NCBI RefSeq assembly: GCF_024171765.1
Contig: NZ_JAMTCI010000003.1
Coordinates: 1 to 64,000, forward strand
DNA length: 64,000 bases
DNA from: Williamsia deligens
Lineage (GTDB): Bacteria > Actinomycetota > Actinomycetes > Mycobacteriales > Mycobacteriaceae
Direction: 5' to 3'
Both the position numbers and the translations under genes were made by a program. The notes below the pieces were generated by a model that was not told where the DNA came from, did not search any database, and saw only the letters and a list, made by a program, of their open reading frames with translations. How positions within the stretch are numbered: the stretch's first letter is position 1; every line of letters begins with the position of its first letter. Shown here one piece after another: positions 16,488 to 22,711 of this stretch.

Positions 16488-18536
16488 GTGGCGACGAATC
16501 CTGTTCTCGCGCACAGCTCCCTGCCGCACGGTCTGCCCGACTTCGCCTCCATCGCCGACGACGACTTCGTCCCCGCGTTCGAGCAGGCGATGGCGACCCA
16601 CCTCCGCGAGGTCGACGTCATCGCCGCCGACCAGTCGCCGGTGACCTTCGCCGGCGTCGTCGAGGCGCTCGAACGATCCGGACAGGACCTGGCCCGCGCG
16701 GCCGGGATCTTCTTCAACCTCGTCGGCGCGGACAGCACCCCCGAGCGCAACCGCATCGCGACCGACCTCGCGCCGCGCCTGTCGGAGCACGCGAGCACCA
16801 TCGCGCTCGATCCGCGACTGTTCGCGAAGATCGCCGACCTGCACGACCGTCGCGCCGAGCTCGACCTCGACGAGGCATCACTGCGCCTGCTGGAGAAGCG
16901 TTTCCGTGAGTCCGTCCGGTCCGGCGCGGGCCTCGACGACGACGGTCAACGGCAGATGCGGGAGATCTCGTCGCGTCTGTCGGTGCTGACGACCATGTTC
17001 TCCCAGCACGTCCTCGACGAGAGCAACGCCGCTGCCGTGCACGTCACCGACGCCGCATCCCTCGACGGGTTGTCGGCATCCGCTGTCGCGGCCGCACGCG
17101 ATGCGGCCCGCGACGCCGGACGCGACGACGGGTACCTCATCACCCTGGAGCTCCCGACGAGCCAGTCGGTGCTGACCTCTCTCACCGACCCCGACACGCG
17201 CGCAACGGTTTTCGCCGCGTCGACGTCGCGCGGAACACGGGGCGGCGACTTCGACACCCGCGACATCGTCACCGAGATCGTCGGCCTGCGTGCACGCCGT
17301 GCGCGCCTCCTCGGCTACCGCGACCACGCCGAGTACGAGATCGCCGAGCAGACGGCCCCGGACGCCGAGGCGGTCGAGACGGTGCTGCGCGACCTCGTCA
17401 GCGCGGCGATGCGTGCCGGAGGACGCGAGCTGACCCGCCTGCGCGCTCTCGCCGGCGAGGAGATCGGGGCGGCGGACCTGACGTACTGGTTGGCGCAGGA
17501 CCGTCGCGCGACCTCCGCTGTCTCCCTGGACGACTTCACCGACTACTGCGACCTCGAGACTGTGCTGCGGGACGGGGTGTTCCATGCCGCGGGGCAGCTC
17601 TACGGTCTCCGATTCGTCCCGCGCGCAGATCTCGCCGGGTACCACCCCGACGTCCGTGTGTGGGAGGTGTTCGACGACGGTGGCGTGTCGGTCGGGCTGT
17701 ACCTCGGCGACTACTACGCCCGTCGCAGCAAACGTGGTGGCGCATGGATGAACAACGTCGTCGACCAGTCGCAGCTGCTCGGAGCGCAGCCGGTCGTGGT
17801 CAACGTCTGCAACTTCACCAAGCCGCAGGCGGGTGAGCCCTGCCTGCTCGATTTCGACCAGCTCACCACGCTGTTCCACGAGTTCGGCCATGCCCTGCAC
17901 GGACTCCTGTCGACGGTGCGGTACCCGTCCCAGTCGGGGACGTCGGTGCCGCGTGACTTCGTGGAGTTCCCCTCACAGGTCAACGAGATGTGGGCACTGC
18001 ACCCGTCGGTGCTGGGTAACTATGCCCGCCACCACGTCACCGGGGCGCCGATGCCCGCCGACCTCGCCGACGCCGCGCGCGCGGCCACGGCCACCGAGAG
18101 CGCCCACAGCACCATCGAATACCTGGCCGCGGCGGTCCTCGACCTCGCCTGGCACCGGGTGACCGTCGAGGACGCCGCATCCGGCGTCATCGACGACGTG
18201 GAGGCGTTCGAGCAACGGGCTCTCGCGCAGGCCGGTGTCGGGAGCGACCTCATCCCGCCGCGCTACCGCACCGGGTACTTCAACCACATCTTCGGTGGCG
18301 GGTACGCGGCCGGCTACTACTCCTACATCTGGTCGGAGATCCTCGACGCGGAGACCGAGCTGTGGTTCACCGAGCGTGGCGGGCTCAGTCGCGCGGCGGG
18401 ACGGGAATTCGCCGACACGACCCTGTCGCGGGGGGACAGCGTCGACCCGATCGCTGCCCACCAGAGGTTGCTGGGGCGCCCGGCTCGTATCGAACCGCTG
18501 CTCGCGCGCCGCGGTCTGGCCGCAGCGGCGTCGTGA
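16488..18536 (+). CDS. M3-family zinc metallopeptidase (Dcp/oligopeptidase-like)
   Basis: This is 682 residues from GTG 16488, with GGGGA upstream inside the lepA end. Thimet-oligopeptidase architecture: a helical N-terminal half, then the active site FHEFGHALHGLLS (HEXXH) at about 465, with the second-helix Glu in FVEFPSQVNEMW about 25 residues later, and the RYRTGYFNHIFGGGYAAGYYSY substrate-binding loop. Cytosolic: no signal peptide. It probably degrades short peptides. It overlaps the cation efflux gene as GTGA. Peptidyl-dipeptidase Dcp and oligopeptidase A cannot be told apart here. Confidence 0.92.
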   Translation: MATNPVLAHSSLPHGLPDFASIADDDFVPAFEQAMATHLREVDVIAADQSPVTFAGVVEALERSGQDLARAAGIFFNLVGADSTPERNRIATDLAPRLSEHASTIALDPRLFAKIADLHDRRAELDLDEASLRLLEKRFRESVRSGAGLDDDGQRQMREISSRLSVLTTMFSQHVLDESNAAAVHVTDAASLDGLSASAVAAARDAARDAGRDDGYLITLELPTSQSVLTSLTDPDTRATVFAASTSRGTRGGDFDTRDIVTEIVGLRARRARLLGYRDHAEYEIAEQTAPDAEAVETVLRDLVSAAMRAGGRELTRLRALAGEEIGAADLTYWLAQDRRATSAVSLDDFTDYCDLETVLRDGVFHAAGQLYGLRFVPRADLAGYHPDVRVWEVFDDGGVSVGLYLGDYYARRSKRGGAWMNNVVDQSQLLGAQPVVVNVCNFTKPQAGEPCLLDFDQLTTLFHEFGHALHGLLSTVRYPSQSGTSVPRDFVEFPSQVNEMWALHPSVLGNYARHHVTGAPMPADLADAARAATATESAHSTIEYLAAAVLDLAWHRVTVEDAASGVIDDVEAFEQRALAQAGVGSDLIPPRYRTGYFNHIFGGGYAAGYYSYIWSEILDAETELWFTERGGLSRAAGREFADTTLSRGDSVDPIAAHQRLLGRPARIEPLLARRGLAAAAS

Positions 18537-19462
18537 CCGCCGACGACCAGACCGTCGCCGCGCCGGGTGTGCGCGCGGACCTCACGCGGTACGCGGTGCT
18601 CAGCATCGTCGCGTCGATCGTCGTCATCGCGCTGAAGATCGTCGCCTGGCGGGTGTCGGGATCGGTGGGCCTGCTGTCCGACGCGGCGGAGTCGATGGTG
18701 AACGTGGTCGCCGCGGTGGGTGCGTTCATCGCGCTGCGGGTGGCGTCGCGTCCCGCCGACGCCGACCACAACTTCGGACACACGAAGGCCGAGTACTTCT
18801 CGGCGGTGTTCGAGGGCGCCATGATCGTGGTGGCCTCCGCGCTGATCATCGTGGCGGCGGTGGACCGGTTGCTCCACCCGAGCGGACTCGAGTCCGTGGG
18901 ACTCGGCCTGGGGATCTCGGTGGCCGCCACCGTCATCAACGCTCTCGTGGGTGCGCTGCTCGTGCGCGTCGGGCGCGCGCACCGGTCGTTGACGCTCGAG
19001 GCCGACGGCAAACACCTGCTGACCGACGTGTGGACCACGGGCGGTGTGATCGTCGGGGTCGTCCTCGTCGCGGTGACCGGATGGCTGCCGCTCGACCCGC
19101 TCGTCGCCATCGCTGTCGCCGTGAACATCCTCGTCGTGGGTGGTCGCCTGGTGTGGCGATCGGGTGCGGGGCTGATGGACACGGCGCTCCCCGACGACGA
19201 CCGCGCGGCGCTGGACGCCGTGCTCGACCGCTACCGCGCGGACCACGTCGACTTCCACGACGTCCGGACCCGTGAGGCCGGCCACGAGCGATTCCTGCAG
19301 CTGCACATGCTCGTTCCCGGCGAGTGGTCGGTCCAGCGTGGGCACGACCTCGTCGAGAAGGTCGAGCGCGACCTCGTCGGGACGCTCGACCACCTGCACG
19401 TCACCATCCACCTCGAACCCATCGGTGACCCCCGGGCCTACGAGCCCTGGCGCCTCGACTGA
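18533..19462 (+). CDS. Cation diffusion facilitator (CDF) efflux protein
   Basis: This is 309 residues from GTG 18533 (GTGA overlap). It has six hydrophobic spans, from AVLSIVASIVVIALKIVAW to PLVAIAVAVNILVVGGRLVW. Metal-site residues are in SDAAESMVN (TM2) and HLLTDVWTTGG (TM5, HxxxD), as in CDF proteins exporting Zn2+/Fe2+/Mn2+ by proton antiport. The C-terminal cytoplasmic domain has HDVRTREAGHERFLQLHMLV, the usual ferredoxin-like fold with His. Which metal is moved cannot be read. The stop lies 10 bp before the left repeat array of the nuclease cassette. Confidence 0.9.
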   Translation: MTADDQTVAAPGVRADLTRYAVLSIVASIVVIALKIVAWRVSGSVGLLSDAAESMVNVVAAVGAFIALRVASRPADADHNFGHTKAEYFSAVFEGAMIVVASALIIVAAVDRLLHPSGLESVGLGLGISVAATVINALVGALLVRVGRAHRSLTLEADGKHLLTDVWTTGGVIVGVVLVAVTGWLPLDPLVAIAVAVNILVVGGRLVWRSGAGLMDTALPDDDRAALDAVLDRYRADHVDFHDVRTREAGHERFLQLHMLVPGEWSVQRGHDLVEKVERDLVGTLDHLHVTIHLEPIGDPRAYEPWRLD

Positions 19463-19471
19463 CCCCGCGCC

Positions 19472-19518
19472 CCACCCGTCTGTTGGGCGCCAGGAACCGC
19501 CTGTTGGGCGGCCGGAGC
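19472..19518 (+). repeat. Left inverted-repeat array (two 21-bp units)
   Basis: Reading inward, the array begins CCACCCGTCTGTTGGGC and ends CTGTTGGGCGGCCGG, two copies of a unit close to GTCTGTTGGGCRSCAGGAACC. Positions 19478-19509 match the complement of 20482-20513 at 29 of 32 bases. The outer and inner ends also correspond to those of the right array. Confidence 0.85.
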
Positions 19519-19569
19519 GGATCTGGCGTGCAGGTGGAACCGTCCGGCTGTCACGTGCGTCCGATCGAT

Positions 19570-20451
19570 ATGGGCTACGCCGAGCTGTCACACACCGAGC
19601 ACCCCGACCACCTCACGACGACGGGCCGGGCTGATCGCACCGCGCGCCGTGACATGGTCCGACTGCACCGCGGTGTGTTCGCCGACCCCCGGGTCGCCCT
19701 GACCCACACCGATCGGATCCGCGCCGGACACCTCAGCGCGGGACCGGGATCGGTCGTCGCGGGGTTGAGTGCGCAGTTCCTGCACGGTGTCGCGTATCCG
19801 GTTCTCGACGGCGACGTGGAGATCATCCGCGATCTCCGTGGTCAGGGGCGGCGGCGTCCCGGCGTCCGCATCATGCGGACGGATCAGCTCGGTCCCGGCG
19901 ACATCGTCGACAGGGCGGGGATGCCTGTGACGAGCCCGGTGCGCACCGCCTTCGACCTCGGCCGCCGTCGGCCTGATCTCCTCGCTCTCGGCCATCTCGA
20001 CGACATGGCGCGGACCGTTCCGCTCGACATCAGTGCGCTGTGGGCCTACACCCGCGACCACACCCACACCGCCGGTGTCCGTCAGCTGCGCGAACTGGTG
20101 GGCTTGATCGATCCCGCCGCCGAATCCCCCGGCGAGAGCTGGACACGTCTCATCATGCACCGACGCGGACTGCCGCGACCGGACAGTCAGATCGAGGTGT
20201 TCGACGAGTGCGGTGCACTGATCGGGCGCTTCGACCTGGGCTATCGGCGCTACAAGATCGGCGTCGACTACGACGGTGTCGAGTTCCACTCGAGCGACGA
20301 GCAGAGGGCGCACGATGCTCGGCGGGACAACGGTCTCCGCCGGCGCGGCTGGATCCCGCTGCGCACGACCGCCGCGGCGTTGTCCGACAACCCGTCCGCG
20401 GAGATGGCGAAGATCGAGAGCGCTCTGGCCCTCCGCGGACACCGCATGTGA
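19570..20451 (+). CDS. AbiEi-like HTH plus DUF559/Vsr-like nuclease-fold protein
   Basis: This is 293 residues from ATG 19570; the frame is open back to a TTG at 19483 inside the left repeats, and GTG 19558 is another option. The N-terminal part (RTARRDMVRLHRGVFADPRV, GSVVAGLSAQFLHGV) resembles the winged-helix domain of AbiEi-type proteins. The C-terminal 90 residues (ESWTRLIMHRRGLPRPDSQI, LIGRFDLGYRRYKIGVDYDG, HDARRDNGLRRRGWIPLR) show the E...R / D-x-Y / (E/D)YDG / R-x-x-x-L-x-x-x-GW order of DUF559/Vsr-like PD-(D/E)XK nucleases. It is framed by inverted 21-bp repeat arrays. Function is unknown; a DNA nuclease recognising the repeats is a hypothesis. Confidence 0.7.
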   Translation: MGYAELSHTEHPDHLTTTGRADRTARRDMVRLHRGVFADPRVALTHTDRIRAGHLSAGPGSVVAGLSAQFLHGVAYPVLDGDVEIIRDLRGQGRRRPGVRIMRTDQLGPGDIVDRAGMPVTSPVRTAFDLGRRRPDLLALGHLDDMARTVPLDISALWAYTRDHTHTAGVRQLRELVGLIDPAAESPGESWTRLIMHRRGLPRPDSQIEVFDECGALIGRFDLGYRRYKIGVDYDGVEFHSSDEQRAHDARRDNGLRRRGWIPLRTTAAALSDNPSAEMAKIESALALRGHRM

Positions 20452-20452
20452 G

Positions 20453-20540
20453 TCCCGACCGCCCACCAGACGGTTCCTGCTGCCCAACAGACGGTTCCTG
20501 CTGCCCAACAGACGGTGCCCGCTGTCCACCAGATGGGTGG
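20453..20540 (-). repeat. Right inverted-repeat array (four 21-bp units)
   Basis: The repeats CCCACCAGACGGTTCCTGCTG (20462-20482), CCCAACAGACGGTTCCTGCTG (20483-20503) and CCCAACAGACGGTGCCCGCTG (20504-20524) are followed by a diverged unit ending GATGGGTGG at 20540, directly before the GH15 stop codon. They are in the opposite orientation to the left array. Read on the minus strand each unit encodes a heptad like LLGSRNR, although the array is outside any gene. Confidence 0.9.
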
Positions 20541-22607
20541 TCAGGTGTTGGCGGGGATGAACCCTCCACCGTGGGCGTGTGCCTCCTCGGCGCGGATCAC
20601 GTGCATGACGGCGTTGATCAGCGCCAGATGTGTGAACGCCTGCGGGAAGTTGCCGAGGTGGCGCCCGGTGCGGTGGTCGATCTCCTCCGCGTAGAGCTTC
20701 AACGGGCTGGAATAGCTCAGCAACCGTTCGCACAGGTGCTTGGCCCGCGTCAGCTCGCCGATCTCGACCAGCGCGGACACCAACCAGAACGAACAGATCG
20801 TGAACGTGCCCTCCTCGCCGGACAATCCGTCGTCGGTCTCCTCCACGCGGTAACGCAGCACGAGTCCGTTCTCGGTCAGCTCGTCGGCGATGGCGAGGAC
20901 CGTGTTGCGGACGCGCTCGTCCTCGGAGGGCAGGAAACGCAGCAGCGGCACCAGCAACAGTGACGCGTCGAGGGCATCGCTGCCGTATCGCTGGGTGAAC
21001 ACCCCACGCTCGTTGACGCCGTGGGCGAGGATGTCCTCCTTGATCTCGTCGGCCTTCTCCGCCCACGTCTTCGCGTACGACTTCTCACCGTGCATCGTGG
21101 CCAGGCGCGCGCCACGGTCGAGCGCGATCCAGCACATGACCTTCGACGAGGTGAAGTGCTGTGGCTCGCCACGCACCTCCCAGATGCCGCGATCGGGCTT
21201 GTGCCAGTGCTTGATCGCCTCCTCGACCTGCGCCTTCAGCACCGGCCACAGCGTCTCGGAGATGGTGTCGTTCGACTTGGTGTTGAGGTACACCGAGTCG
21301 AGCATGGTGCCCCAGATGTCGTGCTGTGACTGGTTGTACGCGCCGTTGCCGATGCGGACCGGCCGGGCACCGTCGTACCCGGAGAGATGGAGCAGTTCCT
21401 CCTCCTCGAGCTCGCGCTCACCGCCGACGCCGTACATCACCTGCAGCGGATGGTGTTCGCCGTTCGTCACCCCCGACACGTCGGCGATGAACGAGAAGAA
21501 GTCGTCGGCCTCGCGATCGAGACCGAGGGTGTAGAGACCCCAGAGGGCGAAGGTGGAGTCGCGGACCCAGGCATAGCGGTAGTCCCAGTTGCGTTCTCCG
21601 CCCGGGGTCTCCGGCAGCGACGTGGTCGCCGCGGCGAGGAGTGCCCCCGTGGGGGAGTAGGTGAGTCCCTTGAGTGTCAGCGCACTGCGCTGGAGGTGAC
21701 CGCGCCACGGGTGGTCGGGGAACGAGCCGATGTTGATCCACTGCCGCCACGACTCCGAGGTGGCCCACATCTTCTGCGCCGCCTCCTCCCAGTTCTGCGG
21801 GGCGGGCTGCGGCGACCAGCTCAGGGCGATGAACCGGTTGTCGCCCTCGGTGAGTCGGCTGCGAGCGCGCGCCTCGCGTCCCTCGAGGCCGAGCTTGAAG
21901 TTGGTTGTGAGTTTCAGCGTCGGCGCGGGATGCGTCGTCCCCGACGCGGTGGCGATCGCCTCGGAGTAGGCGGGCCCGGAGTACTCCCACGTCGTCGTCC
22001 CGCGGTGGTAGTCGAACGCCGGTTCGCAGCTCATCGCCACCTCGACGGTCCCGCTGACGCAGCGGACGGTACGCAGGAGGATGTGCTCGGCATCCCAGTC
22101 GGTGGGGGTGCGCTTGTGGGTCCGGGACCGTCGGTCGTTGTCGTGCCACGGCCCCATCACCAGCGCGTCGCGGACGATGATCCACCCCGTGTCCGTCTGC
22201 CACGTGGTCTCCACCATCAGACTGCCGGGGAGGTAGCGACGGTCCACGGGGACGTTCACACCGTAGGGAGCCAGCTTGAAGTGACCGGCGGACCGGTCGA
22301 GGACGGCACCGAAGACGCTCGGCGAGTCCGGGCGGGGGACACACAGCCACTCCACCGAGCCGTTGCGGGCGATGAGGCAGTTGGTCTCGCAGTCGGACAG
22401 GAAGGCGTAGTCGTCGATCGGCGGGAAGACGTTGCGGGTGGCCGTCGCCGGGGTGAACGAGTTGGCGTCGGCGAGGGTCCCGGTGCCGCCGTGCACGGCC
22501 GCGCTCTGCTCGACGACGCCCAGGGCGGGCGGCGCCGGGACCGGTGGACCCGACGGTGCGTCGACGGCGTGGTCGGGGATCTCGTGCGAACCCGGCGTGG
22601 AAGTCAT
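20541..22607 (-). CDS. Glycoside hydrolase family 15 protein, trehalase-type
   Basis: This is 688 residues from ATG 22607. It has an N-terminal beta-sandwich beginning PPIDDYAFLSDCETNCLIAR and a C-terminal (alpha/alpha)6 barrel. The catalytic region includes GGERNWDYRYAWVRDSTFAL, where WDYRYxWxRD is the GH15 signature, and the second acid probably lies in EEGTFTICSFWLVSAL. As I recall, the M. smegmatis/M. tuberculosis homologue (Rv2402 family) is an inverting trehalase. It would convert trehalose to glucose in the cytosol; no signal peptide is seen. Other GH15 activities (glucoamylase) remain possible. Confidence 0.88.
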   Translation of the reverse strand: MTSTPGSHEIPDHAVDAPSGPPVPAPPALGVVEQSAAVHGGTGTLADANSFTPATATRNVFPPIDDYAFLSDCETNCLIARNGSVEWLCVPRPDSPSVFGAVLDRSAGHFKLAPYGVNVPVDRRYLPGSLMVETTWQTDTGWIIVRDALVMGPWHDNDRRSRTHKRTPTDWDAEHILLRTVRCVSGTVEVAMSCEPAFDYHRGTTTWEYSGPAYSEAIATASGTTHPAPTLKLTTNFKLGLEGREARARSRLTEGDNRFIALSWSPQPAPQNWEEAAQKMWATSESWRQWINIGSFPDHPWRGHLQRSALTLKGLTYSPTGALLAAATTSLPETPGGERNWDYRYAWVRDSTFALWGLYTLGLDREADDFFSFIADVSGVTNGEHHPLQVMYGVGGERELEEEELLHLSGYDGARPVRIGNGAYNQSQHDIWGTMLDSVYLNTKSNDTISETLWPVLKAQVEEAIKHWHKPDRGIWEVRGEPQHFTSSKVMCWIALDRGARLATMHGEKSYAKTWAEKADEIKEDILAHGVNERGVFTQRYGSDALDASLLLVPLLRFLPSEDERVRNTVLAIADELTENGLVLRYRVEETDDGLSGEEGTFTICSFWLVSALVEIGELTRAKHLCERLLSYSSPLKLYAEEIDHRTGRHLGNFPQAFTHLALINAVMHVIRAEEAHAHGGGFIPANT

Positions 22608-22711
22608 CGGACCATCATCGCGAGCCGACGGTGTGTTCGCACGCGAACACACCGACACCTCTGCGGGTCGGCGAGTCGGGTTGCGCTCAGGATGATTTAA
22701 AGTCCGCGCGC

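Follow-up and report, generated by a model that had tools for sequence, protein, structure and literature searches.

A chromosomal AbiEi- and Vsr-like nuclease gene of Williamsia and its probable family of dispersed inverted repeats

The 64,000-nucleotide stretch of Williamsia deligens DNA analysed here (contig NZ_JAMTCI010000003.1, positions 1 to 64,000; hereafter the window) holds a nuclease gene, predicted to join an AbiEi-like part to a Vsr/homing-nuclease-like domain, which is framed by inverted arrays of a 21-bp unit and stands between genes for a CDF cation efflux protein and a GH15/trehalase-like protein. From the architecture of this locus, the lineage-specificity of its units, their dispersal, their co-divergence with the protein and the predicted folds, we read it, at a probability of roughly 0.65, as a nuclease resident in the chromosome that has a dispersed inverted-repeat family of its own and works in the manner of the “REPtrons” formed by repetitive extragenic palindromic (REP) elements and REP-associated tyrosine transposases (RAYTs), with an unrelated enzyme.

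The CDF stop codon lies at 19460-19462 and the left array starts at 19476, while on the other side the right array ends at 20536 and the GH15 stop lies at 20541. The array arms (19476-19516 versus 20475-20515) are 88% complementary across 41 nt, and the 19-mer core of the unit, allowing up to three mismatches, has 4 matches in the window against 0.05 expected. Tandem Repeats Finder detected the right array (score 111) and not the two-unit left array, which by itself is barely periodic (lag-21 score 25/42, shuffle maximum 24). A preliminary description of this DNA had proposed a nuclease framed by two units on the left and four on the right; this arrangement is confirmed, the outer two right units being degenerate. 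None of the three refuting conditions named there holds, since the repeats recur away from the locus in this genome, homologues carry repeats in their flanks, and the fold prediction returned a nuclease domain. Besides the start adopted in Table 1, the reading frame is open from a TTG at 19483, and the gene caller picked 19528; the segment 19528-19570, 5′ of the likely ATG, looks by eye like the corresponding segment in homologues (GGAACC...CGTCC...ATG) and could be coding or promoter/operator sequence.

The Pfam families MTES_1575, DUF559 and AbiEi_1 match the protein, and the Y1 transposase family was not matched in Pfam. Residues E203, R207, Q221, D236 and G250 of the nuclease part are unchanged in 58/58 sequences, and the histidine-hydrophobic-histidine (HUH) motif is absent from the window protein and occurs, unconserved, in just 2/58 relatives. 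The gene is free-standing, with both adjoining genes intact, and does not lie inside an intron or intein.

Eight Williamsia genomes were compared, numbered from G000 (the own genome) to G007, and every one carries a homologue at E ≤ 1e-60, 19 in total. Inverted complementarity between the flanks reaches 24-30 of 30 positions at 18/19 of these loci, against 19-22 for the best of ten shuffles (which deal out non-overlapping dinucleotides and are hence approximate), one flank being masked at the nineteenth (L064); a clear 21- or 22-nt array stands beside the gene on at least one flank at 19/19. Among six distant paralogues of the own genome, 2/6 reach at least 23/30 within 260-bp flanks, and a repeat search around them detected inverted arms in 5/6 (52-85 nt long, 70-87%) and none at L042. 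Family loci of G003, G004, G005 and G007 reach 23/30 in 24/30 cases, and in 15/20 of the distant subset, in a scan where ten of the 30 loci were already among the 19 homologues, one shuffle of that approximate kind reached 24, and loci such as L196 and L210, truncated where a contig stops, were misplaced. Beside one distant paralogue there is also a 167-nt direct repeat of 76% identity (L041:148-314 and 1276-1442), perhaps two related neighbouring genes.

The repeat units vary by nuclease lineage, as U1 to U5 plus 22-nt types (Table 1), and among the 19 homologues each unit type has one nuclease per genome. Over 26 loci, which include the near-identical pairs L118/L119 and L112/L113, protein distance correlates with unit distance (Mantel rho 0.365; 0/5000 permutations as high, the largest 0.254), and unit distance tracks the first 190 residues (0.409) more than the remaining protein (0.273). 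One syntenic site is occupied in 7/8 genomes, with both neighbours common to six loci and one to the seventh; because it holds U2 in G000 and G007, U3 in G001, G002, G003 and G005, and a 22-nt type in G006, the nuclease gene appears to be kept in place by inheritance while its repeat changes. By eye, no GTAG (GT[AG]G) foot common to the units was seen in the list of unit consensuses, the letters GTAG occurring in the left array of L075 merely as part of the unit. A contig titled Kitasatospora arboriphila (L113) encodes a nuclease that shares 96% identity with the Williamsia muralis one (L112), and its right-flank unit is identical too; this record is possibly contaminated or mislabelled.

Table 1. 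Coordinates of the locus, repeat units of the nuclease lineages, and array pairs around other genes.
Feature	Position	Strand	Details
Left array	19476..19517	+	units 19476-19496 and 19497-19517, 21 nt each; outer end ACCC
Left-array units	19476-19496; 19497-19517	+	mismatches to CCGTCTGTTGGGCNNCAGGAA: 0; 3
Right array	20453..20536	-	four 21-nt units
Right-array units	20453-20473; 20474-20494; 20495-20515; 20516-20536	-	mismatches to CCGTCTGTTGGGCNNCAGGAA: 4; 0; 0; 5
Nuclease coding sequence	19570..20451	+	from ATG 19570, start uncertain; from homologue alignments
AbiEi-like part (predicted)	19600..20112	+	residues ~25-195 in the 307-aa model numbered from 19528
Vsr / I-Bth0305I-like nuclease part (predicted)	20119..20442	+	residues ~198-305 of the 307-aa model
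CDF cation efflux protein	18533..19462	+	left neighbour; context, outside the element
GH15 / trehalase-like protein	20541..22658	-	right neighbour; context, outside the element
Unit U1			CCGTCTGTTGGGCNNCAGGAA; window site
Unit U1 in G004 and G007			CCGTTCGTTGGGC...
Unit U2			CGTCGAGTGGGC...
Unit U3			CAGTTGGGCACGTAACG...
Unit U4			CCGAGCGTGCACCAGATCCCG
Unit U5			CCGTGTTGGGCC...
Inward array pairs around non-nuclease genes	L021:2001-3439; L215:1271-2077; L217:1039-1867; L216:1046-1640		

Away from the nuclease genes the units recur. The U1 core has 41 matches in the own genome at up to three mismatches (25 in the reversed control) and 13 at up to one (0 in the control), and a generic tandem pattern, RKTGGGC-N14-RKTGGGC, finds 76-168 matches per genome against 3-10 in controls, in 8/8 genomes. 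At up to one mismatch, U1 occurs 13 times in G000, 10 in G004 and 8 in G007, with 10, 10 and 8 of these distant from the nuclease, and is absent from the five other genomes; the positive genomes are the carriers of the U1-site nuclease. For the other units carriers were defined by nuclease-adjacent arrays: U3 is found in exactly its four carriers (G001 33, G002 32, G003 24, G005 15; 32, 28, 20 and 10 distant from the nuclease) and in none of the four others, and U5 in exactly its three (G002 18, G003 9, G005 4; 15, 7 and 2 distant) and in none of the five others. U2 is present in both of its carriers (G000 48, four of them at the nuclease; G007 10). Three of the four types tested (U1, U3 and U5) are thus confined to genomes with the cognate nuclease, in counts that ignore species kinship.

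Placement of the arrays was tallied in G000 from 100/103 of the generic-pattern matches, together with earlier loci. Among the matches listed, 47/50 arrays lie outside predicted genes (L025 is within a predicted frame, and the matches L274 and L275 are intragenic); of these 47, convergent genes border 25, tandem genes 20 and divergent genes 2, with 38/47 in sense past a gene's stop; the baseline of gene pairs in the window (n=57) is 39 tandem, 9 convergent and 9 divergent. The strict core, which overlooks degenerate arrays (L026, L030), forms 34 clusters: 21 have a single orientation, 9 form inward pairs (within 400 bp), 3 are outward and 1 is mixed. Six of the 21 are halves of three inward pairs whose arrays stand some 1 kb apart (the window, L035 and L021), and three resemble chance matches. 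Of the array pairs, a minority point outward, a minus-strand array followed by a plus-strand one, between convergent genes (L023:1816-1948, L055:1482-1571, L279:1793-1906). Some inward pairs, in a set of loci whose solitary arrays (those without a nuclease) were hand-picked, surround a different gene, namely a DUF308, YqeY-like or DUF4190-like (a weak match) one, and the DUF308 gene is so enclosed in two species, at 94% identity. Folded as single-stranded DNA, three inward palindromes give z of -8.5, -10.2 and -11.0.

Eight orthologous junctions hold arrays in different species, with units and copy number altered; at one, the array is U2-like in G000 and U1-like in G004 (L266:1781-1993, L043:1398-1682), which reflects either in-place replacement or independent insertion. 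The variable 9-mer of U2 arrays groups by genome (59 arrays, 0/5000 permutations), and because it does so, array spread or conversion within each genome fits the data.

Outside the genus, an inverted arm match of at least 23/30 is found at 60/80 loci from named records, about 13 of which seem identical to loci among the 19 Williamsia homologues, against 1/71 outer windows and 2/80 sequences shuffled in the approximate manner described above. When positions came from a gene caller, whose filters admitted 50/81 nuclease genes, inverted arms flanked 34/50 nuclease genes (14/14 for the window and L101-L122, 20/36 for L123-L180) and 3/157 other genes. In L123-L180, many flanks among 18 loci inspected by eye have a single palindrome each, and hairpins of at least 14/16 occur in 60/114 flanks versus 4/108 control windows. 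One mycobacterial palindrome type is present in 8/8 carriers (1-11 copies, of which 1-9 are distant from the nuclease, against 0 for the control), and in 0/4 genomes picked for another flank type, all twelve hand-picked. Mycobacterial and rhodococcal relatives thus often have inverted palindromes. Two other accounts are rejected: chance origin of the repeats fails against the expected-count, shuffle, outer-window and other-gene controls, and the idea that arrays are merely part of the neighbours' 3′ ends was dropped because paralogues lacking the window unit carry arrays of a different unit.

Whether the gene itself moves bears on one alternative, a transposon in which array, gene and array move whole, the nuclease acts as transposase and gene-less arrays are derivatives resembling non-autonomous miniature inverted-repeat transposable elements (MITEs). 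The ends are inverted, arrays with the identical unit exist elsewhere in the genomes, CAC or ACC recurs by eye beside the first unit, and the CDF-GH15 junction contains gene and arrays in 3/8 genomes and only 22-46 bp with neither in 5/8. Yet at five sites the neighbours of nuclease-family genes are common to different species, each genome has a single nuclease per unit type among the 19 homologues, and inspection by eye of 26 elements, whose boundaries are not base-exact, showed no target-site duplication. Homologues occur in 6/72,556 plasmid records, all below 60% identity, and 0/50,697 phage records, and phage or plasmid carriage is rejected on these counts. Since neighbours are shared at five sites and such records are near nil, the gene looks resident and chromosomal, and a transposon is unlikely; the mobile cassette suggested by the preliminary description is not supported for the gene itself, the CDF-GH15 junction, filled in some relatives and empty in others, being the one presence/absence case. 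It is quite improbable, too, that the repeats are operators and terminators, with self-repression of the AbiEi type at the gene and dispersed copies serving as bidirectional terminators or RNA-stability elements without any repeat-processing enzyme. AbiEi is reported to repress its own expression via inverted repeats (PMC7319586), and the bias of the listed arrays towards convergent pairs and the sense side past stops, like the strong hairpins of the three folded palindromes, would suit such roles; these would leave unexplained the matching array that lies 3′ of the nuclease, the units common to nuclease flanks and dispersed arrays within a lineage, and the invariant active site. An anti-phage or toxin–antitoxin (TA) module, a defence nuclease protected or regulated by its arrays, could account for the match to PADLOC AbiEi models (best 2.7e-12) and for a fold resembling AbiEi and, in its middle, MenT-type toxins, and is nonetheless very unlikely: dispersed arrays would go unexplained, and no AbiEii nucleotidyltransferase is adjacent at the window locus, the one inspected for it, where CDF and GH15 adjoin. 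Beyond the AbiEi label from PADLOC, no finding bears on a defence role in either direction.

A resident nuclease with its own dispersed repeats has points against it as well. U2 occurs in 4/6 non-carriers (G004 25, G005 10, G003 5, G002 4), being not found in G001 and G006, so that strict co-occurrence for all types is ruled out, and for U2, U3 and U5 the definition of carriers makes co-occurrence partly circular. The resemblance to MenT-type toxins tells in the same direction, as do the single-flank lag-21 periodicity of L061, L065, L067 and L072, close to that of shuffles, and the modest z of a mycobacterial flank folded as single-stranded DNA (just -3.95). Loss of a nuclease gene could account for U2 in non-carriers; in REPtrons, repeats are reported to be able to outlive their gene (PMC6006769).

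As a mechanism for such a nuclease and its repeats, we suggest that the AbiEi half would bind the 21-bp units. Twenty-one base pairs amount to about two helical turns, and successive sites would therefore sit on one face of the DNA. The nuclease half may then nick or cut at arrays, and repair of the break from another array would copy, lengthen and homogenise arrays, a homing-like form of spread in which the arrays flanking the gene would serve as binding sites for its product and perhaps also as a donor. The predicted homing-endonuclease-like fold would suit this copy-by-repair route, and a fold alone proves no function.

The closest known likeness is to the REP/RAYT (TnpAREP) REPtrons and REPINs, with their repeat-flanked gene, type-specific dispersed extragenic repeats and enzyme-repeat co-variation. 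In these, palindromic repeats are reported to flank the gene and co-vary with the enzyme, and REP types to be dispersed intergenically, often as inverted doublets and 3′ of coding regions (Refs. PMC3733652, PMC6006769, PMC3116915). The likeness, with a different fold, had been drawn in the preliminary description and is now well supported: the repeats are dispersed through the genome, they flank 18/19 Williamsia homologues, they co-occur with the gene family for U1, U3 and U5, though not strictly for U2, among the four types tested, and the predicted fold is AbiEi-like plus Vsr/homing-nuclease-like. Here, however, an AbiEi-like and Vsr-like nuclease replaces the HUH/Y1 transposase, and tandem units of 21 or 22 nt replace the single short REP element; because it has neither an HUH enzyme nor a GTAG foot, the window system is not classed as a REPtron. 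It shares a predicted AbiEi fold with the AbiEi antitoxin of type IV TA systems, from which it differs by its C-terminal nuclease and the lack of an adjacent nucleotidyltransferase toxin gene in the window, and a predicted homing-type nuclease domain with I-Bth0305I, Vsr, DUF559 and the MTES_1575 restriction endonuclease, unlike which it is free-standing, fused to an AbiEi-like part and accompanied by dispersed cognate repeats. In the open-licence PMC literature (titles and abstract starts, without preprints) we found no link between a DUF559/AbiEi nuclease and dispersed repeats, and no paper joining DUF559, transposon and nuclease. Since the definitions of REPtron, AbiE TA system and homing endonuclease each apply only in part, the category would be new, provided that no description exists beyond that literature.

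REP elements have been linked to HUH transposases, with RAYTs thought to serve as the enzyme for GTAG REPs and a CGTC REP superfamily reported without a dedicated enzyme (PMC3733652). More tentatively, at somewhat less than even odds, the Williamsia system may represent a second class of repeat-tending enzymes in bacteria, with an independent origin: AbiEi-Vsr nucleases that spread and homogenise palindromic arrays by cutting and repair from another array, common in Mycobacteriales and giving dispersed palindromes there an enzyme. Were this so, the existence of cognate repeats for a non-homologous enzyme would mean that the enzyme-repeat arrangement arose more than once, and genes annotated merely as DUF559 or AbiEi would acquire a function. 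The multiple nuclease-unit pairs within one genus, for their part, form a natural test set for the co-evolution of a protein and its DNA site.
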